Made by a program: the position numbers and the translations under genes. Under the pieces are notes generated by a model that was given only the letters and a program-made list of their open reading frames with translations, was not told the DNA's origin and made no database searches. A DNA stretch of 52,274 nt from assembly GCA_900318345.1 (NCBI GenBank), contig ONKD01000035.1, positions 1 to 52,274 of the forward strand, in the 5' to 3' direction. Positions within the stretch are counted from its first letter, which is position 1. The number at the start of each line of letters is the position of its first letter. The DNA comes from an uncultured Prevotellaceae bacterium. Its GTDB lineage: Bacteria; Bacteroidota; Bacteroidia; Bacteroidales; Muribaculaceae. Shown one piece after another: positions 17,778 through 33,096 of the stretch.

Positions 17778-19856
17778 TTACTCGTCGAGGAGGATGTGCA
17801 TCACCTCGATAGCACTCTTCATGACGTTGGTGCCAGGGCCAAAGATGGCGGCAACACCTGCCTTGTAGAGGTAGTCATAGTCCTGCATGGGGATCACACC
17901 ACCAGCGGTGACGATGATATCCTCACGGCCAAGCTTCTTGAGCTCAGCAATCACGGCGGGAATGAGGGTCTTGTGACCAGCGGCAAGCGAAGAAACGCCG
18001 AGTACGTTCACGTCGTTCTCGACAGCCTCGCGAGCGCTCTCCTCGGGAGTCTGGAACAAGGGACCCATGTCCACGTCAAAGCCACAATCGGCATAACCGG
18101 TGGCAACAACCTTAGCGCCACGGTCGTGACCGTCCTGACCCATCTTGGCAATCATGATGCGGGGCTGACGGCCTTCCTTCTTGGCAAAGAGGGCGGTCAA
18201 GCGACGAGCCTCTACGATTGCTTTGTAACGTCCAACGACTTCCTCACATGCATCGCTGATTTCACCCAGCGAAGCGCGATCCTTAGCAGCCTCGACAGCG
18301 AGCTCGAGCAGGTTGCCCTTGCCGGTCTTGACACACTCGGTGATGGCGGCGAGGTCGGCTTTCACCTTTGCCTCGTCACGGTTAGCACGCAACTTCTCAA
18401 GACCTTCAACCTGTTCCTTGCGAACCTCGGTGTTGTCGATCTCAAGGATGTCAATGGGAGCCTCTTTCTCGAGGGCATACTTGTTGATACCAACGATGGT
18501 CTGACGGCCACTGTCGATGCGGGCCTGGGTGCGGGCTGCAGCCTCCTCGATACGCATTTTGGGCACGCCGGTCTCGATAGCCTTGGCCATACCACCAAGC
18601 TTCTCAATCTCCTCGATGTGTGCCCATGCCTTCTGCACGAGTTCATCGGTCAGAGCCTCTACATAGTAGGAACCTGCCCACGGGTCAATGACCTTGGTGA
18701 TATAAGTTTCCTGCTGGATGTAGATCTGGGTATTGCGGGCGATACGAGCCGAGAAGTCGGTGGGCAGTGCGATGGCCTCGTCGAGGGCGTTGGTGTGCAG
18801 CGACTGGGTGTGACCCTGTGCAGCAGCCATAGCCTCGATACAGGTGCGGCCCACGTTGTTGAAGGGATCCTGAGCTGTCAGCGACCAACCGGAGGTCTGG
18901 CTGTGGGTACGCAGCGACATTGACTTGGGATTCTCAGCGCCGAAGCTCTTCACGATCTTGGCCCACAACAGACGGCCAGCGCGCATCTTGGCAATCTCGG
19001 TGAAGAAGTTCATCGAGATACCCCAGAAGAACGACAGACGCGGAGCGAAGGCGTCAACCGACAGACCTGCGTTCACACCAGTGCGGATGTAGTCCATACC
19101 ATCGGCCAGGGTGTAAGCCAGCTCGATATCGGCGGTAGCACCTGCTTCCTGCATGTGGTAACCCGAAATGGAGATCGAGTTGAACTTGGGCATATACTTA
19201 GAGGTGTACTCAAAGATGCTGGCGATAATCTGCATCGAGAACTTGGGAGGATAGATGTAGGTATTACGCACCATGAACTCCTTCAAGATATCGTTCTGGA
19301 TGGTACCAGCCATTTCCTCGAGCTTAGCGCCCTGCTCCAGACCTGACACGATGTAGAATGCCATGATGGGCAGCACAGCACCGTTCATGGTCATGGAAAC
19401 TGACATCTTGTTCAAGGGGATACCGTCAAACAGGACCTTCATATCCTCTACAGAGCAGATAGACACACCTGCCTTGCCGACGTCACCGACCACGCGCTGG
19501 TTGTCGGCGTTGTAGCCACGGTGGGTGGGAAGGTCAAATGCTACGGACAGACCTTTCTGACCTGAAGCCAAGTTACGGCGATAGAATGCGTTGGACTCGG
19601 CAGCGGTCGAGAAACCAGCATACTGACGAACGGTCCACGGACGGAACGGATACATCAATGAGTAAGGACCACCCAGGAAGGGAGGAATACCTGCTACAAA
19701 CTCCAGGTGCTCCAGACCCTCGATGTCCTCGTGGGTATAAATCGGCTTAATGTCGATGAGCTCGGCATTCTTCCACACTTCGCCCTTGGGGAGCGGATTG
19801 TGCTTTACATTAAAAGCATCATTTGCAATATCGATATTCTTAAAATTCGGTCTCAT
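17778..19856 (-). CDS. mutB: Methylmalonyl-CoA mutase large subunit (B12-binding)
   Basis: This is the catalytic subunit of the adenosylcobalamin enzyme that interconverts succinyl-CoA and (R)-methylmalonyl-CoA in the succinate-propionate route. The 692-residue protein has the TIM-barrel substrate domain (motifs [20 protein letters not shown] at about 72-91 and [13 protein letters not shown]) and a C-terminal cobalamin domain with DGHDRG at 575-580, where H577 is the lower cobalt ligand, plus [12 protein letters not shown] further on. Its start lies 10 bases past the mutA stop, so the two are one transcript and form the heterodimer. No epimerase or MeaB-type chaperone gene is adjacent in this window. 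Confidence 0.96.
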
Positions 19857-19866
19857 AGTCGTCTCG

Positions 19867-21714
19867 TCATTTTAACAGTTTAGCGTTGAAGGCTTTTAAC
19901 GTAGCAAGCACGTTGGTGCGCACATTGATGAAATTGGTAACGCCCAAGGCCTTGAATTCATCGGTCTCGGGACCGGCGAGCACGAGCTCGGCACGGCCGT
20001 TGAGTTCCTTGACAGCCTCGGGGATGAGGGCGGCATACTCGTCGTCGCTGGAGCAGAGCACAACCACGTCGGCTTTCTTCTCCATAGCGGCGTCAACACC
20101 TTCCTTAACGGTCTTGAAGCCGTTGTTATCGATCAGCTCATAGCCAGCGCAAGCGAAGAAGTTGTCACTGAACTGGGCACGAGCAAGGCGCATGGCCAGA
20201 TTGCCGATGGTTAGCATGAACACCTTGGGAGTGTTGGCTGCGTGTTCAGTAGCAAGACGAATCTCCTCGAACTGCTCAGCCAGACGCTTGGTGTTAAGAC
20301 CAACAGCGCCCTCTTTCTCCTCATGGTTGCAGCCGCAGTGGCAGCAGCAAGCCTCGCGAGCGTCGGCCTTGTCGGCAGCCTTCTCGGTAAAGTTGGGGAA
20401 CTGGTTGGTACCCAGGAGCTGCTCACGACGCTTAGCCACCTTGTCAAAGCGAGCGTTGGCAGTTGCATTCACGGCATTGATGATGTCACCGCTCTCGAGC
20501 GCGGCCTTGAAACCACCCTTGTCCTCGACCTCGAGGAAGAGCTTCCATGCAGTCTCGGCAAGGTTCTTGGTCAGCATCTCCACATAGTAGGAACCGCCGG
20601 CGGGGTCAACGACCTTGTCGAGGTGGCTCTCTTCCTTGAGCAGGATCTGCTGGTTGCGGGCGATGCGCTCGCTGAAGTCGTCGCTCTTCTTGTAGGGAGC
20701 GTCAAACGGGGTGACAACCAGTGAGTCAACACCAGCCAGAGCGGCACTCATGGCCTCGGTCTGGCTACGGAGCAGGTTCACATAGCTGTCATAGATTGTC
20801 ATGTTGAAGCAGCTGGTCTCGGCATTGACATTCATCATGCATGAATAGTCGTTAGCGGGATTGAACTGCTTAACGATGAGGGCCCACAGTTCACGAGCGG
20901 CGCGGAACTTGGCAATCTCCATGAAGTAAACAGTCGAGATACCCATGTTGAACTTGATGCGGTTAGCCACCTCATCGGCGCTGAAACCGGCATCGGTCAA
21001 CATAGCCATCCACTCGGCACCCCATGCCAGAGCGTAACCCAACTCCTGGTTGATGTAGGCACCAGCATTGTTCAGTGCCAATGAGTCAACGGTGAGCACG
21101 CGCAGGTGAGCAACGGGCTTCACGGCATTCATCAGCTCGGTGGCCATGGCAACGATGTCGCCAGGGAAGGGCTCACCGTGCTTAAAGGTGCGCTTGAACG
21201 GGTTGAAATTGATACTACCCACAAAGGTGTCCTCGCAGCCGTTCTTCTTGCAGAGCTCAACAAGTTCGTTAGCATACTTAACCGCGCACTTGGGGCAGCA
21301 CATGATGTTGATTTCACAGGCGGGAAGGGAGATGCCCTTGAAGAGTTCCTCCAAGTCCACATCACCGTTAGGCATGTGGAAGCCGATCGAGTTGATGCCC
21401 TTATTGAGCACCTCGAGCGCTTTGGCATTGGCAGCCTTCACATCATCAACCATGATGTTCTGGCGCACCTTCCAGTCGTTGTTGTAGCGGGTTCCGCGAA
21501 CATAGGGGAACTCACCAGGGAGTGATTTGGTTTGCTTCAGGTCGGCGATGTCAACGCTGCGGTACAGCGGTTGTGCATCAAAACCCTCGTTTGTCCGCCA
21601 AACCATTTTCTTTTGAAAGTCGGCCCCTTTCAGGTCAACTTCGGCCTTGGCACGCCACTCCTCGGGAGTGACAGGCGCGAATTGGTCGAACAGTTTTTTT
21701 CTTGTTTCTGCCAT
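19867..21714 (-). CDS. mutA: Methylmalonyl-CoA mutase small subunit, with a Cys/His-rich linker
   Basis: The 615-residue partner of MutB keeps the barrel fold ([19 protein letters not shown] near residue 70; [13 protein letters not shown] near 380) but its C-terminal B12-like domain lacks DxHxxG, as expected of the structural subunit. The odd part is a cluster between the two domains, C456, C457, C458, H459, C460, C462 and H464 ([15 protein letters not shown]), coded at 20323-20349. It looks able to bind a metal, and I do not know it as a standard MutA feature. The gene is first in the mutA-mutB operon; a TACCTTTG box on the minus strand at 21791-21798 is the likely -7 element. Confidence 0.94.
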
Positions 21715-21790
21715 AAAAAATAAAATATATAGTAACCTTAAAAATTTTGTATAGTCACTGTTGATTGATTATATGTTCAATTCCAATCTG

Positions 21791-21798
21791 CAAAGGTA
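21791..21798 (-). promoter_or_regulatory. Probable -7 box of mutA-mutB
   Basis: TACCTTTG on the minus strand, 77 bases before the mutA ATG. A poor TTTCG lies 22 bases further upstream. I see no cobalamin riboswitch in the short leader. Confidence 0.5.
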
Positions 21799-21944
21799 CT
21801 ACTATTTCCCGAAATAATACCGAAAAAAATACATTATTAATTTTTAAAGCGATTTTTGAAGACATGAAAGCGACTATTTGATGCTTCGCTAAAGCAAAAA
21901 AGCAAATTCCACGTGAAGAAAAGGCAAAAATAAGGAAAAAGTTG

Positions 21945-21952
21945 TATCTTTG
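21945..21952 (+). promoter_or_regulatory. Probable -7 box of the GH18 gene
   Basis: TATCTTTG followed by GGAGG at 21952-21956 and the ATG at 21979. The -33 region shows no TTTG. Confidence 0.45.
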
Positions 21953-21978
21953 GAGGTTAGAAAAAAACTGGCTGAAAA

Positions 21979-22992
21979 ATGACAATAAAACGGATTGTAA
22001 TGATTGCTTGCATGATGATGCTGATGTTGCCCATGCAAGCCGGTAAACACAAGGATGATGGGCCCGTTGTGGCCGCTTATGTCACAGGGTGGAACGCTGA
22101 TATGCCATTGCCTGACTGCTCGGTATTGACGCATATCAACTACGCCTTCGGGAACGTGAACAAGACCTATGATGGGGTCATTATCCAACGCCCAGACCGC
22201 CTACGTCAATTGGTGGAGTTGAAGAAGAACAACAAGATCTATATCGTGCTGAGTATCGGCGGCTGGACGGCTGGCGGATTCAGCGAGATGGCATCGACCG
22301 AGAAGCGGCGCAAAGCGTTTGCAAAGGATTGCAAGCGAATTGTTAAAGACTTCGGGCTCGATGGCATTGACATCGACTGGGAATATCCCAGCAGCAGTGA
22401 AGCCGGCATATCTTCATCGCCTGCCGACATTGACAACTTTACCTTATTGATGAAGGAACTGCGCAAGGCATTGGGCAAGGATTACTTGTTGTCGTGTGCC
22501 ACAATCGCCGATGCCAGATTTGTCGATTTCAAGGCAATCGACCCCTATGTGGACCTGGTGAACATCATGATGTATGACGTGGGCAACCCACCCTATCACC
22601 ACGCTGCGCTCTACCGCAGCGAGATGTCGGGCCGCGTGACGGCCGAGGAAGCGTTTCAGGCACATCTTGACGCAGGAGTGCCGGTGAACAAACTGGTCAT
22701 GGGCGTACCTTTTTACGGCCGTTCAGTTAAGGGCTTTGGCGATAGTTCATTTGGAGCCCTCGTGAAGCGCAACGATGCCACACGCATGTGGGATGATGTT
22801 GCCAAGGCTCCCTATCTGGTCAAGGATGGTGAGATGGTGTGCACCTATGAAGACGCCGAATCTTTGTCCTGGAAATGCAAGTTCATCAAGGAAAAGGGGA
22901 TGCGTGGCGCCATGTACTGGGAGTATCGCTGTGATGACGAGGTCGGGACGCTGCGCAATGCTGTGTGGAACGGCATCATGGGCCAGCCTTAA
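21979..22992 (+). CDS. Secreted GH18 chitinase-like glycosidase
   Basis: The 337-residue protein has a signal peptide (about 1-21) and a single GH18 TIM barrel. The family motif DGIDIDWEYP spans 128-137, with E135 as proton donor and D133 beside it; the earlier SIGGW motif (92-96) and the late MYWEYRCDD segment complete the active site. It should hydrolyse beta-1,4-linked GlcNAc-containing chains by substrate-assisted catalysis, so chitin oligomers, peptidoglycan fragments or host glycans are all possible. No carbohydrate-binding module is attached. It has its own promoter-like box and appears to be a single-gene unit. Confidence 0.9.
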   Translation: MTIKRIVMIACMMMLMLPMQAGKHKDDGPVVAAYVTGWNADMPLPDCSVLTHINYAFGNVNKTYDGVIIQRPDRLRQLVELKKNNKIYIVLSIGGWTAGGFSEMASTEKRRKAFAKDCKRIVKDFGLDGIDIDWEYPSSSEAGISSSPADIDNFTLLMKELRKALGKDYLLSCATIADARFVDFKAIDPYVDLVNIMMYDVGNPPYHHAALYRSEMSGRVTAEEAFQAHLDAGVPVNKLVMGVPFYGRSVKGFGDSSFGALVKRNDATRMWDDVAKAPYLVKDGEMVCTYEDAESLSWKCKFIKEKGMRGAMYWEYRCDDEVGTLRNAVWNGIMGQP

Positions 22993-23096
22993 TGCAGTCA
23001 ATGCGATTACTGGACAAAAGTAGTTTTCATGACATATCACAGGTAATGAATTGATTTTTTTATGCGCGAAGTTGTGAAAATGCGCTTTTTTTTCCT

Positions 23097-23104
23097 TACT
23101 TTTG
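23097..23104 (+). promoter_or_regulatory. Probable -7 box of the ECF S-component gene
   Basis: TACTTTTG fits TAnnTTTG. A TTG at 23072-23074 lies 22 bases upstream, slightly long for a -33 element. Confidence 0.45.
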
Positions 23105-23131
23105 CAGTCTAACTACTAAAATATCATCAAA

Positions 23132-23650
23132 ATGGAAAATAACGCTAGTGCAGTTAGACTGTATTCATTGGGGTGGCGCGAGATGAGCACCTATATGTTC
23201 GCTTTGTTGTTTATTGCTGGTAACATCTTGTTGCCTCAGCTGTGTCACCTGATTCCTCAAGGTGGCCTCATCCTGTTGCCCATCTATTTCTTCACGCTGA
23301 TTGCCGCCTATAAGTTCGGTTTGCGCGTAGGCCTGTTGACGGCAATTCTGTCGCCGCTCATCAACTCAATGCTGTTCGGCATGCCGCCTGTTGCCGCCCT
23401 TCCCATCATCACCATCAAGGGTGTGTTGCTCGCTGGTGCAGCCGCATGGATGGCTAACCGCAGCAAGGGGGCCTCGTTGCTGGCTCTCATCGGTGTCGTG
23501 CTCGGCTATCAGCTTGTGGGCGGTCTCATCGAGTGGGCAATGACAGGAAGTCTTGCTAGCGCCTTGCAGGACTGGAAACTAGGCTGGCCAGGCATGTTAC
23601 TGCAAGCGGTGGGAGGCTGGTTGGTGCTCAACCACCTGTTGCGCAAGTAG
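23132..23650 (+). CDS. ECF-type transporter substrate-binding (S) component-like membrane protein
   Basis: The 172-residue protein is almost wholly hydrophobic with about five or six membrane segments (for example residues 20-38, 45-60, 65-85, 100-112, 115-135 and 150-168). Its size and style match the small S components of energy-coupling factor transporters in Bacteroidetes, which bind a vitamin or metal and share an EcfAAT module coded elsewhere. No EcfA or EcfT gene is adjacent, so the substrate is unknown. The last 58 bases (23593-23650) recur at 24177-24234, beyond the GxxExxY gene, coding the same 18 residues. Confidence 0.65.
   Translation: MENNASAVRLYSLGWREMSTYMFALLFIAGNILLPQLCHLIPQGGLILLPIYFFTLIAAYKFGLRVGLLTAILSPLINSMLFGMPPVAALPIITIKGVLLAGAAAWMANRSKGASLLALIGVVLGYQLVGGLIEWAMTGSLASALQDWKLGWPGMLLQAVGGWLVLNHLLRK
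23593..23650 (+). repeat. 3' end of the ECF gene, copy 1 of a direct repeat
   Basis: These 58 bases code MLLQAVGGWLVLNHLLRK plus stop. They match 24177-24234 at 52 of 58 positions; all six differences are synonymous, including TAG versus TAA. Confidence 0.9.
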
Positions 23651-23670
23651 CTTTTCTCACATATAATTAC

Positions 23671-23689
23671 CGTTAATTTATCATTAATT
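23671..23689 (+). repeat. Left inverted repeat flanking the GxxExxY gene
   Basis: CGTTAATTTATCATTAATT here is the imperfect complement of 24151-24168 (read on the minus strand: CGTTAATTATCATCAATT). The two lie just outside the GxxExxY gene. Confidence 0.55.
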
Positions 23690-23696
23690 TTTAAAC

Positions 23697-24141
23697 ATGA
23701 TAAATCCAAAAGATTATCGAGAAACTGTTTTTAAGATAATCGGAGCGGCTATGACAGTTCACCGAGAATTGAACTGGGGTTTGCTCGAATCGGTATACAA
23801 TGAAGCTCTCCACCTAGAATTACTAGATCTAGGAATAAAACATGAAACAGAAAAGCAATTGCATTGCTACTATAAGCATCATCAATTGGAAAAGTATTTC
23901 CAGATTGATTTATTAGTCGAAGACGATATTATTGTAGAGCTTAAATCTGTAAATAAATTATTGCCGGCACATAGGTCTCAGCTTTTTTAACTATTTGAAG
24001 CTAACTAAGAAACCAATTGGTTTGTTGATTAATTTTGGCCAACCTAGTTTACAAGGTGAAAGGTATGTTTTTTTCAGTGAGAGCAACACGTGTACAGTTC
24101 TAGATAAAAACATGGAACTAGTTTTCCCAGACGATAAATAA
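23697..24141 (+). pseudogene. GxxExxY protein gene (PD-(D/E)XK-like), frameshifted in a T run
   Basis: The first frame gives 97 residues with the signature GLLESVYNEALHLEL (G..E..Y at about residues 28-34) and the nuclease-like core IDLLVEDDIIVELKSV, as in the GxxExxY family (related to PD-(D/E)XK nucleases; function unproven). It stops in a run of six T at 23983-23988. In the next frame the sequence continues exactly as the family does (NYLKLTKKPIGLLINFG, then YVFFSES) to a TAA at 24139-24141, for a total of about 147 residues. One T fewer would restore the gene. It may be a pseudogene, a phase-variable gene or a sequencing error. The segment is visibly AT-richer than its neighbours and lies between inverted repeats and duplicated ECF-gene ends. 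Confidence 0.85.
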
Positions 24142-24150
24142 TTAATGGAT

Positions 24151-24168
24151 AATTGATGATAATTAACG
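24151..24168 (-). repeat. Right inverted repeat flanking the GxxExxY gene
   Basis: Read on the minus strand this is CGTTAATTATCATCAATT, the partner of 23671-23689, differing by one base change and one single-base gap. Confidence 0.55.
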
Positions 24169-24176
24169 TGAAATAA

Positions 24177-24234
24177 CATGTTACTGCAAGCGGTAGGAGG
24201 CTGGTTGGTATTGAACCACCTGCTGCGCAAGTAA
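24177..24234 (+). pseudogene. Second copy of the ECF gene 3' end (18 codons)
   Basis: This is an orphan gene tail coding MLLQAVGGWLVLNHLLRK and TAA. It has no body of its own upstream. It is either the original gene end displaced by the GxxExxY unit, or a second end brought in with it. Confidence 0.85.
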
Positions 24235-24260
24235 ATTCCATCGTTCAATAGACACATTAA

Positions 24261-24302
24261 AACAACACTGCACTGCCATTCTGTTGGCGGTGCAGTGTTG
24301 TT
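24261..24302. terminator. Strong bidirectional terminator
   Basis: AACAACACTGCAC at 24261-24273 pairs exactly with GTGCAGTGTTGTT at 24290-24302, forming a 13 bp stem between the ECF/GxxExxY locus and the convergent rhamnosidase gene. Confidence 0.75.
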
Positions 24303-24327
24303 AATATTGAGAATTAGATGCTGTTTC

Positions 24328-26919
24328 TTAGTTGTTGAGGTTCATCTTGATGGTGTAGCTTCCAGCCTGGTATTCTCTTGACTGCGTTTCACCTGGGAGG
24401 GTAACCGACGCTGTCGCACCCTTGGGGATGGTAAATTTCCAAATCCACTTGTCGCCCTCATATTTCCAGGAACTCTTAATGAGACCTGCAACCGATTGAT
24501 ACTCGGCATCAAGATAGCCCAAACGCTTGTCTGGGATGGGCTTCATGATGATGTGACGGAAACCGGGCTGAGCCGTGTCGGCAGCAATACCTGCTGCAGT
24601 TTCCCAAATCCATTGGCAAACAACACCATAAGCATAGTGGTTGAAACTGTTCATGCCCTGCGGGCCCATGCCTTCTTCAATCATATAGCTGTTCCAGCGT
24701 TCCCAAATGGTCGTGGCACCATTGTCCACCGAATAGAGCCAGCTGGGATTTTTTCGCTGGAAAAGCAGTTCATAGGCGATGTCGCTCATACCGTTCTCGG
24801 TGAGAATCGGCATCAGAATGGAAGTGCCCAAGAAACCCGTCTGCAAGCAATTTCCATGTGCAGCAAAATTTTCACGCAGGCGCTTCAACATGTTGTCTCG
24901 GGCTTGCCCTTGGAACAATTCGTTCTTGAGAGCAAACAAAATCGGCGTCTGCATCGTGTTGAGAATCTCAGCCTTGAACTCACCTTTATCATTGAAAAAG
25001 CGTTTCAGCAGGTAGGCTTTTGCCTCATTGACCATAGTCTCATACTTGGATGCGTCACGGCCAGTGGCTCGAGCCATGTCGCGCATCATAGCGGCATCAA
25101 TCGCCCAGTAGGAAGCACCCAGGTAGCTCCAATAGACACGAGTATCGGACTTAACACCATATTTTCCAAAGGCCTTGCCAGTGCAACTCTCAAGCGGTTC
25201 ATAACTCAGCCAGTCGGCCCACTGATAGTTGCCGTTCTCGGCATTTAGGGCGGTGTGGTCATATTTCGTCTGGTTCACGTGGTCCATGAATTTCTCCATC
25301 GAGGCCCAATGCTGGTCCACAATGTCATTGTCACCGAACTGTTTCCAAACCGTCCAGGGGACTATGATTCCGGCATCGGCCCAGCCCAAACGCATCATGT
25401 CGGTAGACATGGCGCCATATTGTGCCCACGGAGCAACACCAGGATAGGCACCTGTCTCGCTCTGGGTGTCGCGCACATCACGCAACCACTTGCGGAAGAA
25501 GCTGTCAGTGTTGGCAAAGAAGGTTCCCGTCTCGGTGAACACTTGAGTATCGGCCATCCATCCCAGGCGCTCGTTGCGTTGCGGGCAATCGGTGGGCACC
25601 GACAGATAGTTGGAACGCTGTCCCCAAAGCGTATTGGAAATCAGTTTGTTCACCAGTTCGTTGCCCGTAGTGATTTTGCCGATCTCCAAGTCATGGGCAA
25701 TAGAGGTCACCGGAATAGACTTGACACTGTTGATGACCACATCGTCGGTCACTGTGATTGAGATTAGACGATAACCAAAGAACGTGAAATGGGGATACCA
25801 TTCGGCAGGATCCTTGGAATCGGCAAAGGTGTAGTCAATTCTCATGCCTGTTTCGGGAATGCGCAGGTTCTGGCGATGCACACTACCCTCGGGACCATCC
25901 ATGCCGCGGCTCTTCAAGCCATTGCCATCGTTCAGCAATTCAGAGGTAATGCAGGTGAGTTGCGTTCCAGCTTTGGCATTAAACACAAAGGCCGGCACGG
26001 CAGAGCAATTCTGACCGAAGTCGATCACAAGATGCTCACCGGGATGTACAAGCATCGGCTCTCCCCTGGTATATTCCCTGCTGATGACCACTTTGCCATA
26101 GGCCGATGAATCAGCGCCCTCAACATCTTTCCAGATGTAGGCACGGACTGGGGCAAGCGCCAGATCGTGGCGCAGGTAAATCTCAGCGCCGTCAGTCGGG
26201 AGGATTTCTCCCTTGAACTCATCGCTCACGACGGGTCTTGCCAATTCGGGGCTTGTCGGATCAACATCACGTACACGGGCGTCATATTCCTCACCGTCGA
26301 AAATAGCAGCATGTTTTACAGGGCCGGCAATACAAGCTTTCCAATGCTGTGTATCGGTGCCATAGCGTTTCATAGTGCCATCAACGTAGGTCAGCTCCAG
26401 TACACCGCGAAAAGCACACTTCTTGCCAATCATTCCGTCATTGCCGCCAGGCGTGACAATCTTGTCACCCCACCATCCAGGGGTCACCTGTGCCGACAGC
26501 ACGTTCTCGGCACCAGCAGCGGTATTTAATTTGCTCGTTACGTCATAGGTGAATGAACGCTTGGTCTTCATCGGATGGGTGAAACCTGGCTTGAGGACTT
26601 CGTCACCGATGTTCTGACCGTTGACATAGATTTCATACACCCCAAGGCCAGTCGTCATCCACACAGCCTTTGTAACCTGCTGCTCGTTCTTCAACGTGGA
26701 GACGAACCAGTTGGCGCCATCGGCCGCCCTGGTGCCATCCTGTACTTTCCCTGTCACAACAGGGGCGTCGGCAACAGCAATCCATGACGATGAGTTCCAC
26801 GCGTCACCTTCGAGCGTTGGAGCACGTTGCGACATCACATTCTGTTTCGCGGAATTGCAAGCGGTGAGAGTAATGATGCCCGCTATACAGGCTAATTGTA
26901 GCCATTTGAATTTCATCAT
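24328..26919 (-). CDS. GH78 alpha-L-rhamnosidase-like lipoprotein
   Basis: The 863-residue protein has a lipoprotein signal with lipobox LTAC (Cys21), so it is lipid-anchored, probably in the outer membrane or periplasm. Beta-sandwich domains occupy about residues 40-400, and the (alpha/alpha)6 barrel of GH78 starts near 410. The signature DCPQRNERLGWMAD at 444-457 carries the acidic residues implicated in catalysis in this family, and a C-terminal beta domain (about 770-863) closes it. It should release terminal alpha-L-rhamnose from pectin or plant glycosides, though some GH78 relatives act on other sugars. It has no SusC/D neighbours. Confidence 0.88.
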   Translation of the reverse strand: MMKFKWLQLACIAGIITLTACNSAKQNVMSQRAPTLEGDAWNSSSWIAVADAPVVTGKVQDGTRAADGANWFVSTLKNEQQVTKAVWMTTGLGVYEIYVNGQNIGDEVLKPGFTHPMKTKRSFTYDVTSKLNTAAGAENVLSAQVTPGWWGDKIVTPGGNDGMIGKKCAFRGVLELTYVDGTMKRYGTDTQHWKACIAGPVKHAAIFDGEEYDARVRDVDPTSPELARPVVSDEFKGEILPTDGAEIYLRHDLALAPVRAYIWKDVEGADSSAYGKVVISREYTRGEPMLVHPGEHLVIDFGQNCSAVPAFVFNAKAGTQLTCITSELLNDGNGLKSRGMDGPEGSVHRQNLRIPETGMRIDYTFADSKDPAEWYPHFTFFGYRLISITVTDDVVINSVKSIPVTSIAHDLEIGKITTGNELVNKLISNTLWGQRSNYLSVPTDCPQRNERLGWMADTQVFTETGTFFANTDSFFRKWLRDVRDTQSETGAYPGVAPWAQYGAMSTDMMRLGWADAGIIVPWTVWKQFGDNDIVDQHWASMEKFMDHVNQTKYDHTALNAENGNYQWADWLSYEPLESCTGKAFGKYGVKSDTRVYWSYLGASYWAIDAAMMRDMARATGRDASKYETMVNEAKAYLLKRFFNDKGEFKAEILNTMQTPILFALKNELFQGQARDNMLKRLRENFAAHGNCLQTGFLGTSILMPILTENGMSDIAYELLFQRKNPSWLYSVDNGATTIWERWNSYMIEEGMGPQGMNSFNHYAYGVVCQWIWETAAGIAADTAQPGFRHIIMKPIPDKRLGYLDAEYQSVAGLIKSSWKYEGDKWIWKFTIPKGATASVTLPGETQSREYQAGSYTIKMNLNN

Positions 26920-26966
26920 ATCTATTATTTTTGAATTTTGATTATTTACTATGACATCAATTTTAT

Positions 26967-28403
26967 CTATTGTTCTACTATCACTTCAAAAAAAAGAGAT
27001 GTAAAGGCAATAAAAGCGATAAGCAAAGTCAGTGATAAAAAGGAGAGCCATGTTCGTTGATATTTCTTATAAACAAATACTGGGAAGAGACTTAATGCCA
27101 CCGATGCTAACGCATACAGCACAATACAGAATAGTATGAGGATGTTCTGAAACACAGAAGCCCCAGAAGAATTACCGATTGCAAATAACCTAAAAAGATT
27201 TAGCATAGCCACTTTGCTTCCTATTATTACTGAACGAGGTGCCTGCCCCTTGTTCCTTTTATAATATTTTGCCGCATAAGAGAAGCCCTGTATTATCAAA
27301 ATTGCTGACACCGTATCTTTCAGCATTATTAGGAAGCTTTCGATATCATTAGTGGCGATACTTGAGATTATGCCACCAATCAGAAAGGCCAGAAGAACTC
27401 CTACCAATAAGGTAACAAACAGGTGTAATATTGTAGACATCCAGCTCAATCCAAAAAATTGTTTAAAGACAAGAACTAGCAAAAAGCAAACCGCCGGTAT
27501 GTAAACCAATAACATGGCTCCCGTGAGACGATGCAAGAATGAGTTCTCTATATGATTGATCCTATACAACAAGATGAATGGCATCAAGCAAATCAAAAAA
27601 AGAGCCAACACATAGGTCAAGAAAATGTAAGTCTCGACAAAATTGTATTTGTTAACCTTAATGAATGCTATCCAAATGCATATAACGAGTATCGCTCCAA
27701 TGAAAAGCCACTCGTATAGCATATTCTTGGATATCAACCAAACTATCCATGATACAGTATTGATGATGGGTATTACTGAACTGGAAATGCTGATGTTACT
27801 ACTCTCGAATTGTGACTGAATATATGACTTTATTTCCTCCAAATCATTTGCCCCATTAAAGCCTGTAATTTCATATGCCAAGCCTACAGGAGATAAGGCA
27901 TGGGTGCCTGTCAGCCATCCCACAAAGAGCAAAAGCACCACAAGAACAGCCACCAGCTTAAACGGGGGAAAATAAAATTGGCGATGGCCATTCAGGTAGT
28001 CTCGAATCATGTAACCAGGTCGCCAGAACAATTCGCCCAGTGTGCGGAACATCGGTCGATTGCCCATTCCCCAAATGTCCAAAAAGTTAAGTATTATCTG
28101 CTTCCATGTATAATGGGTCCATGTGCCAGCTTGACCGCATTGCGGGCAAATGCGCCCCGAGTAATGATGTCCGCAGTTGATGCAATCGCGCTCATTTTGG
28201 TCAATTGATTTTGGGGTCGGTCTATACTGTTCTAATCGGCGGTTTAAATGCAGATTCCAAGCCTTGCAGTTGCGACTCCACTTGACCACCTTGAAGTGTT
28301 TGAGATTCTTTGGTCTCAAAAAAGCAGAACACTTCTCCTTAAGACAGGTTGTCTTAAGCTTAACGTTCTTGAAGGTGGCTTTGAGTCTTGCGGTCAGTTT
28401 CAT
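26967..28403 (-). CDS. DUF3667-like membrane protein with N-terminal zinc ribbon
   Basis: The 478-residue protein starts with a basic region (1-65) and then a four-cysteine knuckle: C74, C77, C86 and C89 (CINCG...CPQCGQ). After it come the family-like helix 'TWKQIILNFLDIWGMGNRPMFRTLGELFWRPGYMIRDYLNG' region (about 95-135) and about seven membrane segments up to residue 478. This is the layout of DUF3667 proteins of Bacteroidetes, which have no known role. A TATATTTG box on the minus strand at 28408-28415 ends only five bases before the ATG, so the message may be leaderless or the true start may lie further in. The gene is AT-richer than its neighbours. Confidence 0.7.
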   Translation of the reverse strand: MKLTARLKATFKNVKLKTTCLKEKCSAFLRPKNLKHFKVVKWSRNCKAWNLHLNRRLEQYRPTPKSIDQNERDCINCGHHYSGRICPQCGQAGTWTHYTWKQIILNFLDIWGMGNRPMFRTLGELFWRPGYMIRDYLNGHRQFYFPPFKLVAVLVVLLLFVGWLTGTHALSPVGLAYEITGFNGANDLEEIKSYIQSQFESSNISISSSVIPIINTVSWIVWLISKNMLYEWLFIGAILVICIWIAFIKVNKYNFVETYIFLTYVLALFLICLMPFILLYRINHIENSFLHRLTGAMLLVYIPAVCFLLVLVFKQFFGLSWMSTILHLFVTLLVGVLLAFLIGGIISSIATNDIESFLIMLKDTVSAILIIQGFSYAAKYYKRNKGQAPRSVIIGSKVAMLNLFRLFAIGNSSGASVFQNILILFCIVLYALASVALSLFPVFVYKKYQRTWLSFLSLTLLIAFIAFTSLFFEVIVEQ

Positions 28404-32896: not shown

Positions 32897-33096
32897 TGAA
32901 AAAATGTGAGACATCACACATTTTCTTTTCTTAAAATTCCCAAAAAGATATGATAATCCATGCTTTTACGACAAAAGTCCACAAAAAGAGGGGTCTATAC
33001 GACAAATCGATGAACAAATAACCCTCATCGGTGGGCGCGTTGCCATACGATGGTTGTTTTTTGCACCAAATTATCGGCGATGTACAAATAATTTAG

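Follow-up and report, generated by a model that had tools for sequence, protein, structure and literature searches.

The 3' end of an S-component-like membrane protein gene (hereafter the S gene) has been exchanged in a bacterial chromosome. The tail now fused to the gene is imported in its 3' part, and the native end lies downstream, beyond an inserted unit made up of a GxxExxY gene between two palindrome arms. With a probability of roughly 0.55, we propose that insertion of this unit replaced the gene end, via the repair of a nuclease-provoked break from a foreign donor. The locus belongs to a stretch of 52,274 nucleotides, called here the window. Its features are collected in Table 1.

The S gene is present in 77 of the 101 genomes of the genus, and its downstream neighbours differ between species. 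A first-pass annotation had named it an ECF S-component gene. The product matches that family weakly (PF12822, 23.1 bits against a cut-off of 30.7), and none of the NCBIfam models matched it; we therefore retain only the term “S-component-like.” In the genome collection used, which may omit the record of the window itself, the closest record found was a Muribaculaceae metagenome assembly with 96% identity of the S protein (L210).

Table 1. Features of the S-gene end and of the inserted unit (window coordinates).
Feature	Position	Strand	Remarks
S-component-like membrane protein gene, 172 aa	23132..23650	+	Target gene, now with imported tail; ORF, weak PF12822 match
Tail A, copy in use	23593..23650	+	Imported from about 23612-23626 on; first 18 bases look native
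Left palindrome arm	23654..23690	+	Matches dispersed palindrome model from other loci and other genome sites
GxxExxY gene, first and larger piece, 97 aa	23697..23990	+	PF13366 94.2 bits, TIGR04256 100 bits
GxxExxY gene, C-terminal piece, other frame	23977..24141	+	PF13366 20.7 bits, slightly short of the cut-off (22)
Right palindrome arm	24139..24173	+	Matches dispersed palindrome model from other loci and other genome sites
Tail B, displaced native gene end	24177..24234	+	Native downstream DNA directly after

As the first-pass annotation had noticed, the last 58 bases of the S gene recur 584 bases further on (start to start), with 52 of the 58 bases identical. Both copies, tail A and tail B, encode MLLQAVGGWLVLNHLLRK followed by a stop codon, and the codon comparison bears out that all six differences are silent (tail A/tail B: GTG/GTA twice, CTC/TTG with two bases changed, TTG/CTG, and the stop codons TAG/TAA). 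When six substitutions were drawn at random in the tail stretch, all of them were silent in about 0.0001 of 20,000 trials. The match between the tails scores 89, against a best score of 26 in 500 mononucleotide shuffles of the downstream 2 kb and of 27 among the 46 other 2-kb stretches of the window, and is therefore far above chance. The longest exact word common to the two tails is 18 bases long, and their first 18 bases are identical.

The native tail is identified by comparison with G058, the closest relative found. When the window was compared with the G058 contig by BLAST, two blocks aligned at the locus (window 18143-23649 and 24177-27095), and in G058 they overlap by exactly the 57-base tail. 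G058 is a clean empty site with a single tail. Over the right 28 bases, tail B is identical to G058 and tail A differs from it at five positions. Hence, tail B is the native end, and the tail fused to the gene is imported in its 3' part. The TTG codon is common only to tail B and G058; the other 25 of the 27 genomes compared have CTC, CTG, CTT, ATC, or ATT. The check suggested with the first-pass annotation thus finds the downstream tail matching the empty site as the gene's own end. The 3' part of tail A comes from outside the pair formed by the window genome (G000) and G058. Its donor was not found among the 27 genomes, the nearest sequences (G026 and G137) differing at three of the 28 bases each, and this missing donor counts against replacement of the gene end.

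In the left 30 bases, a single position distinguishes tail A from tail B, and there G058 has the base of tail A. This pattern places the start of the import between 23612 and 23626, with about 18-32 native bases on both sides. The import does not span the whole repeat, the first 18 bases of each tail having a native appearance. In addition, the left parts of the two tails have states in common that are missing from G058, so that a short duplication of native sequence is also needed; these shared states count against gene-end replacement. The earlier proposal that the unit arrived with a replacement end thus stands for the 3' part of tail A, foreign next to a native tail B, and probably does not extend to its first 18 bases. 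G000 and G058 diverge to much the same extent along the region, with 47-58 matches per 60 bases in the S gene and upstream and 54-59 downstream, and therefore no wider transferred stretch is seen. Co-conversion in the body of the S gene was looked for and not seen, and the tail sequence gave no match on a plasmid or phage.

Other differences between the window and G058 lie further along. Positions 27096-27945, in the middle of a gene at 26967-28403, do not align to G058 and flanking DNA aligns on both sides, as if this stretch had been exchanged or were evolving fast. At 32988-33056 (L310-L312), G058 has about 770 extra bases that the window is devoid of, and an ORF in this extra stretch looks, by eye, like a fragment of a phage tail tape-measure gene.

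The insert measures 527 bases. Three bases separate the stop codon of the S gene from the left arm, which is followed by the GxxExxY gene, the right arm, and tail B. The insert contains the GxxExxY gene and antisense ORFs; in profile searches of the sense-strand ORFs, only GxxExxY was recognised and neither an integrase nor a recombinase was seen, in agreement with the first-pass annotation. The latter had spoken of a GxxExxY gene. The window copy is not intact: the family match is split over two frames with a stop inside, and the first piece is above both curated cut-offs (22 bits for PF13366 and 35 bits for TIGR04256). The broken frame counts against gene-end replacement. By Pfam's name, PDDEXK_3, the family belongs to the PD-(D/E)XK superfamily. 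Conserved E, D, and ExK residues, which we take to be catalytic, are present in the first piece, one of nine aligned family members being devoid of the lysine. Cutting of the target by the GxxExxY nuclease may drive mobility. No solved structure was related to GxxExxY by sequence up to an E value of 1, and viral contigs yielded one distant relative. A tandem duplication of tail plus hairpin was considered for the window and rejected, since native DNA directly follows tail B and there is no second hairpin.

Displacement of this gene end has occurred in other species. Among 27 genomes of the genus having an S gene at least 84% identical (that of the window included), a displaced tail is found in three, G000, G055, and G041, and its start falls at one and the same codon in each of them, give or take about two bases. 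In 80 named-record loci, the best tail scores were 60 for G055 and 44 for G041, the next being 28. The G041 score is below the 99th percentile (45.8) and the maximum (52) of a null that includes pairings with the two displaced tails, and the G041 case rests on the match of its native tail to the sister genome G123, not on the score.

G055 carries in the same gene end a sister of the window GxxExxY gene (tree distance 0.12, the next copy being at 0.45). This copy is apparently frame-broken near its start, which counts against gene-end replacement. Beyond it lie three decayed tails with gene-less hairpins between them, suggesting repeated rounds of insertion; two of the units are 88% alike over 111 nt and may instead have arisen by tandem duplication. 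G000 and G055 are not sisters in the S-gene tree. Their units are 76% identical over the unit and their S genes 80%, a similar divergence, so that no recent transfer between the two is seen; this absence too counts against gene-end replacement. In G041 (L222, 4519-5308), a foreign S-gene tail is followed by a 165-aa ORF, part of a convergent gene, and then the native tail. The insert holds no GxxExxY gene, no close donor was found for it among the fetched loci, and it looks like foreign chromosomal DNA. Displacement without GxxExxY is the main difficulty for gene-end replacement. One possibility is that a nuclease acting from another place made the break in G041; the other is that something else makes the tail a hotspot.

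Together, the two arms of the window unit make up a 66-68-nt palindrome that is dispersed in the same genome, with the GxxExxY gene in its loop. As an internal control, an 801-base query from the window was searched against its own genome, and the 16 matches found elsewhere all begin within one or the other arm region. The palindrome pattern gave 34 matches vs. five for a reversed control, and palindromes are present in the 20 fetched loci, which had been picked by earlier matches. The two other GxxExxY genes of G000 lie between the arms of two further dispersed families, which have 12 and 24 matches in the genome including the query itself. One of these genes follows a peptidase gene, before miaA (L012, contig C65), and the other lies between aroQ and a methyltransferase gene (L013, contig C49).

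Flanking by palindromic repeats, absent from the first-pass annotation, is the general feature of GxxExxY genes. In the genus, inverted arms beyond all 60 dinucleotide shuffles were found at 121 of 129 GxxExxY loci, as compared with 4 of 247 control boxes shifted by 900 bases (5 of 247 with 20 shuffles). A sample of the phylum gave 47 of 69 loci vs. 1 of 137 control boxes. Direct repeats are less frequent, with 34 of 129 loci vs. 15 of 247 controls in the genus (32 of 247 with 20 shuffles) and 28 of 69 vs. 4 of 137 in the phylum sample. When flanks were cross-paired between loci, 21 of 132 loci exceeded the 99th percentile for direct repeats and 21 of 132 for inverted ones, under a null that is inflated because loci share repeat families. 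The genus set comprised 129 loci fetched automatically or as the best of a longer list, to which L012, L013, and the window were added (132), and three loci with short flanks were dropped; the phylum set was the best 70 of a longer list, minus one. Neither set was sampled at random, and loci that are related and share a site were counted singly.

Solo hairpins often have direct repeats on either side, and these direct repeats are mosaics pieced together from other non-coding repeats. At L290, L293, L303, L304, and L308, the palindromes occur in arrays, with spacers repeated along and mixed with other repeat families. In distant Bacteroidota (L344-L373), the arms around GxxExxY often belong to the CCACAGAGG / CACGGAGA type and have a periodicity of about 9-11 bases. 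For a CACAGAGG-type motif, the matches listed in an open-literature search concerned only other subjects.

Duplication of a coding tail was also considered as a general GxxExxY rule and was rejected, on 121 same-strand and 99 convergent comparisons in the genus and 53 loci of the phylum sample. In the genus, where 121 loci have an upstream ORF on the same strand, the window ranks first with a score of 89; the two loci after it reach 43 and 42, and in both the stop codon falls within a non-coding repeat. G055 falls outside this count, a longer frame having been taken as its upstream gene, and its case is seen by direct comparison. None of the 53 phylum loci exceeds the null. The search suggested with the first-pass annotation, for GxxExxY genes flanked by duplicated 3' ends of other genes, thus reveals no general rule, and this rarity counts against gene-end replacement. 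At the aroQ site, no insertion signature could be read among the 16 nearest loci (own included), occupancy being judged from gap size and visible start: the gap from aroQ to the next gene measures 498-592 bases in 13 loci, 138 in one, and 19 in another, and in one the next gene was not found. At this site (L314-L327), the arms vary in sequence from species to species, and in several the repeat includes the aroQ stop codon.

Several other origins of the locus can be imagined. Foreign DNA may have recombined at a hotspot in the S-gene end with GxxExxY as a passenger, as the G041 insert and the varying downstream neighbours of the S gene would suggest. However, sister GxxExxY units accompany two of the three displaced tails, in non-sister species, and the common right junction asks for a site-specific break; we find such passive recombination rather unlikely. 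Transposition by a Y1 (REP-type) or other enzyme would account for the locus if it had duplicated about 57 bases of target, both tails being native and the one in use later converted or drifted. This agrees with the identity of the first 18 bases, with the arrays of same-family palindromes and repeated spacers, and with the Y1 transposase genes, two of which are in this genome and which occur in 92 of the 101 genomes of the genus. Yet five of the six differences lie in the tail under selection, at places where tail B equals G058, and neutral decay would have altered B; a long target duplication is therefore improbable.

The unit might also be old: the common ancestor would have had it and most species would since have lost it, G058 through recombination of one tail with the other. 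Divergence between the units of G000 and G055 is indeed about the same as that between their S genes, but 24 of the 27 genomes have no displaced tail, and the coding sequence of tail B is kept, unlike the decayed tails of G055. This makes vertical descent very improbable. Hardly any weight can be given to an assembly artefact joining the S-gene ends of two strains in a metagenome-assembled genome. Records of the clade are largely metagenome assemblies, and the window genome (3.17 Mb) is in 82 contigs and 90.56% complete, but the tails have an exact word of only 18 bases in common, and a related GxxExxY unit is also inserted in this gene end in a second genome, G055.

Break repair from a foreign donor is favoured because the anatomy of the locus equals that of mitochondrial mobile ORFs and because GxxExxY has the PD-(D/E)XK residues. 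According to this model, the palindrome-bounded GxxExxY unit would enter the 3' coding end of the S gene together with a foreign version of that end. The GxxExxY nuclease or a relative would cut near CATG at codon 155, and incoming DNA of another species would serve as the template for repair of the break. On the left, joining would take place by homology inside the tail, and on the right where the native tail begins. The outcome would be a host gene having a foreign tail and encoding an unchanged protein, the native tail being pushed 584 bases downstream with barely any drift. The role of GxxExxY as the cutter and the repair route are inferred.

More tentatively, GxxExxY could be the active part of widespread palindrome-bounded selfish elements that spread by nuclease-provoked repair at gene ends, gene-less palindromes being their non-autonomous offspring; we consider this possible, if doubtful. 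The same caution applies to the idea that each GxxExxY gene would sit in the loop of its own dispersed palindrome family and that the 3' end of the target would be replaceable. If true, a large set of intergenic repeats of Bacteroidota gains a candidate mover. If the GxxExxY nuclease is part of palindromic elements, the S-gene locus offers a concrete target sequence for testing it. In the accessible parts of the open literature, the name GxxExxY is rare and used in passing, and these mentions contain nothing on mobility or repeats. The accession PF13366 is also seldom named. The literature searched, to which this statement is confined, gave no description of GxxExxY inside palindromes or in bacterial gene-end replacement and no mention of TIGR04256. 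Matches on REP-like repeats in Bacteroidetes and on free-standing homing endonucleases concern other systems, as far as their available text goes.

The locus resembles several known systems. REP/RAYT systems consist of dispersed intergenic palindromes, some in arrays, with the gene of a DNA-cutting type of protein between palindrome arms. The window family has the same organisation, dispersed and partly arrayed palindromes with a DNA-cutting type of gene between arms, except that this gene is GxxExxY and not a Y1 transposase. Integrative elements of the tRNA, guaA, and prfC types restore the 3' end of their target and leave the old end downstream. The first-pass annotation had drawn this parallel, and it holds inasmuch as the window insert supplies a new 3' end, the old one being left downstream. 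It breaks down for the tyrosine- or serine-recombinase integrase gene such elements carry, no integrase being seen in the window insert, and the G041 insert looks like foreign chromosomal DNA. The closest anatomy is that of the endonuclease mobile ORFs (mORFs) of fungal mitochondria, found, for example, in atp6, atp9, cox2, and nad3 of Glomus and in atp6 of Allomyces. In these, according to the available part of the report, a foreign 3' end is fused to the host gene and the native end, downstream, is closest to a relative devoid of the insert (PMC3630166). The window likewise has an endonuclease-like gene, a fused foreign 3' end, and a native end downstream that is nearest to the empty-site relative. 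In contrast, it is a bacterial chromosome, with palindrome arms and a tail of 58 bases, and its nuclease-like gene is a GxxExxY of the PD-(D/E)XK type instead of LAGLIDADG or GIY-YIG. The two ends of Glomus atp6 are stated to be 91% identical in protein (PMC3630166), whereas the window tails encode the same residues. If our reading is true, gene-end replacement, described for fungal mitochondria, extends to bacterial chromosomes.
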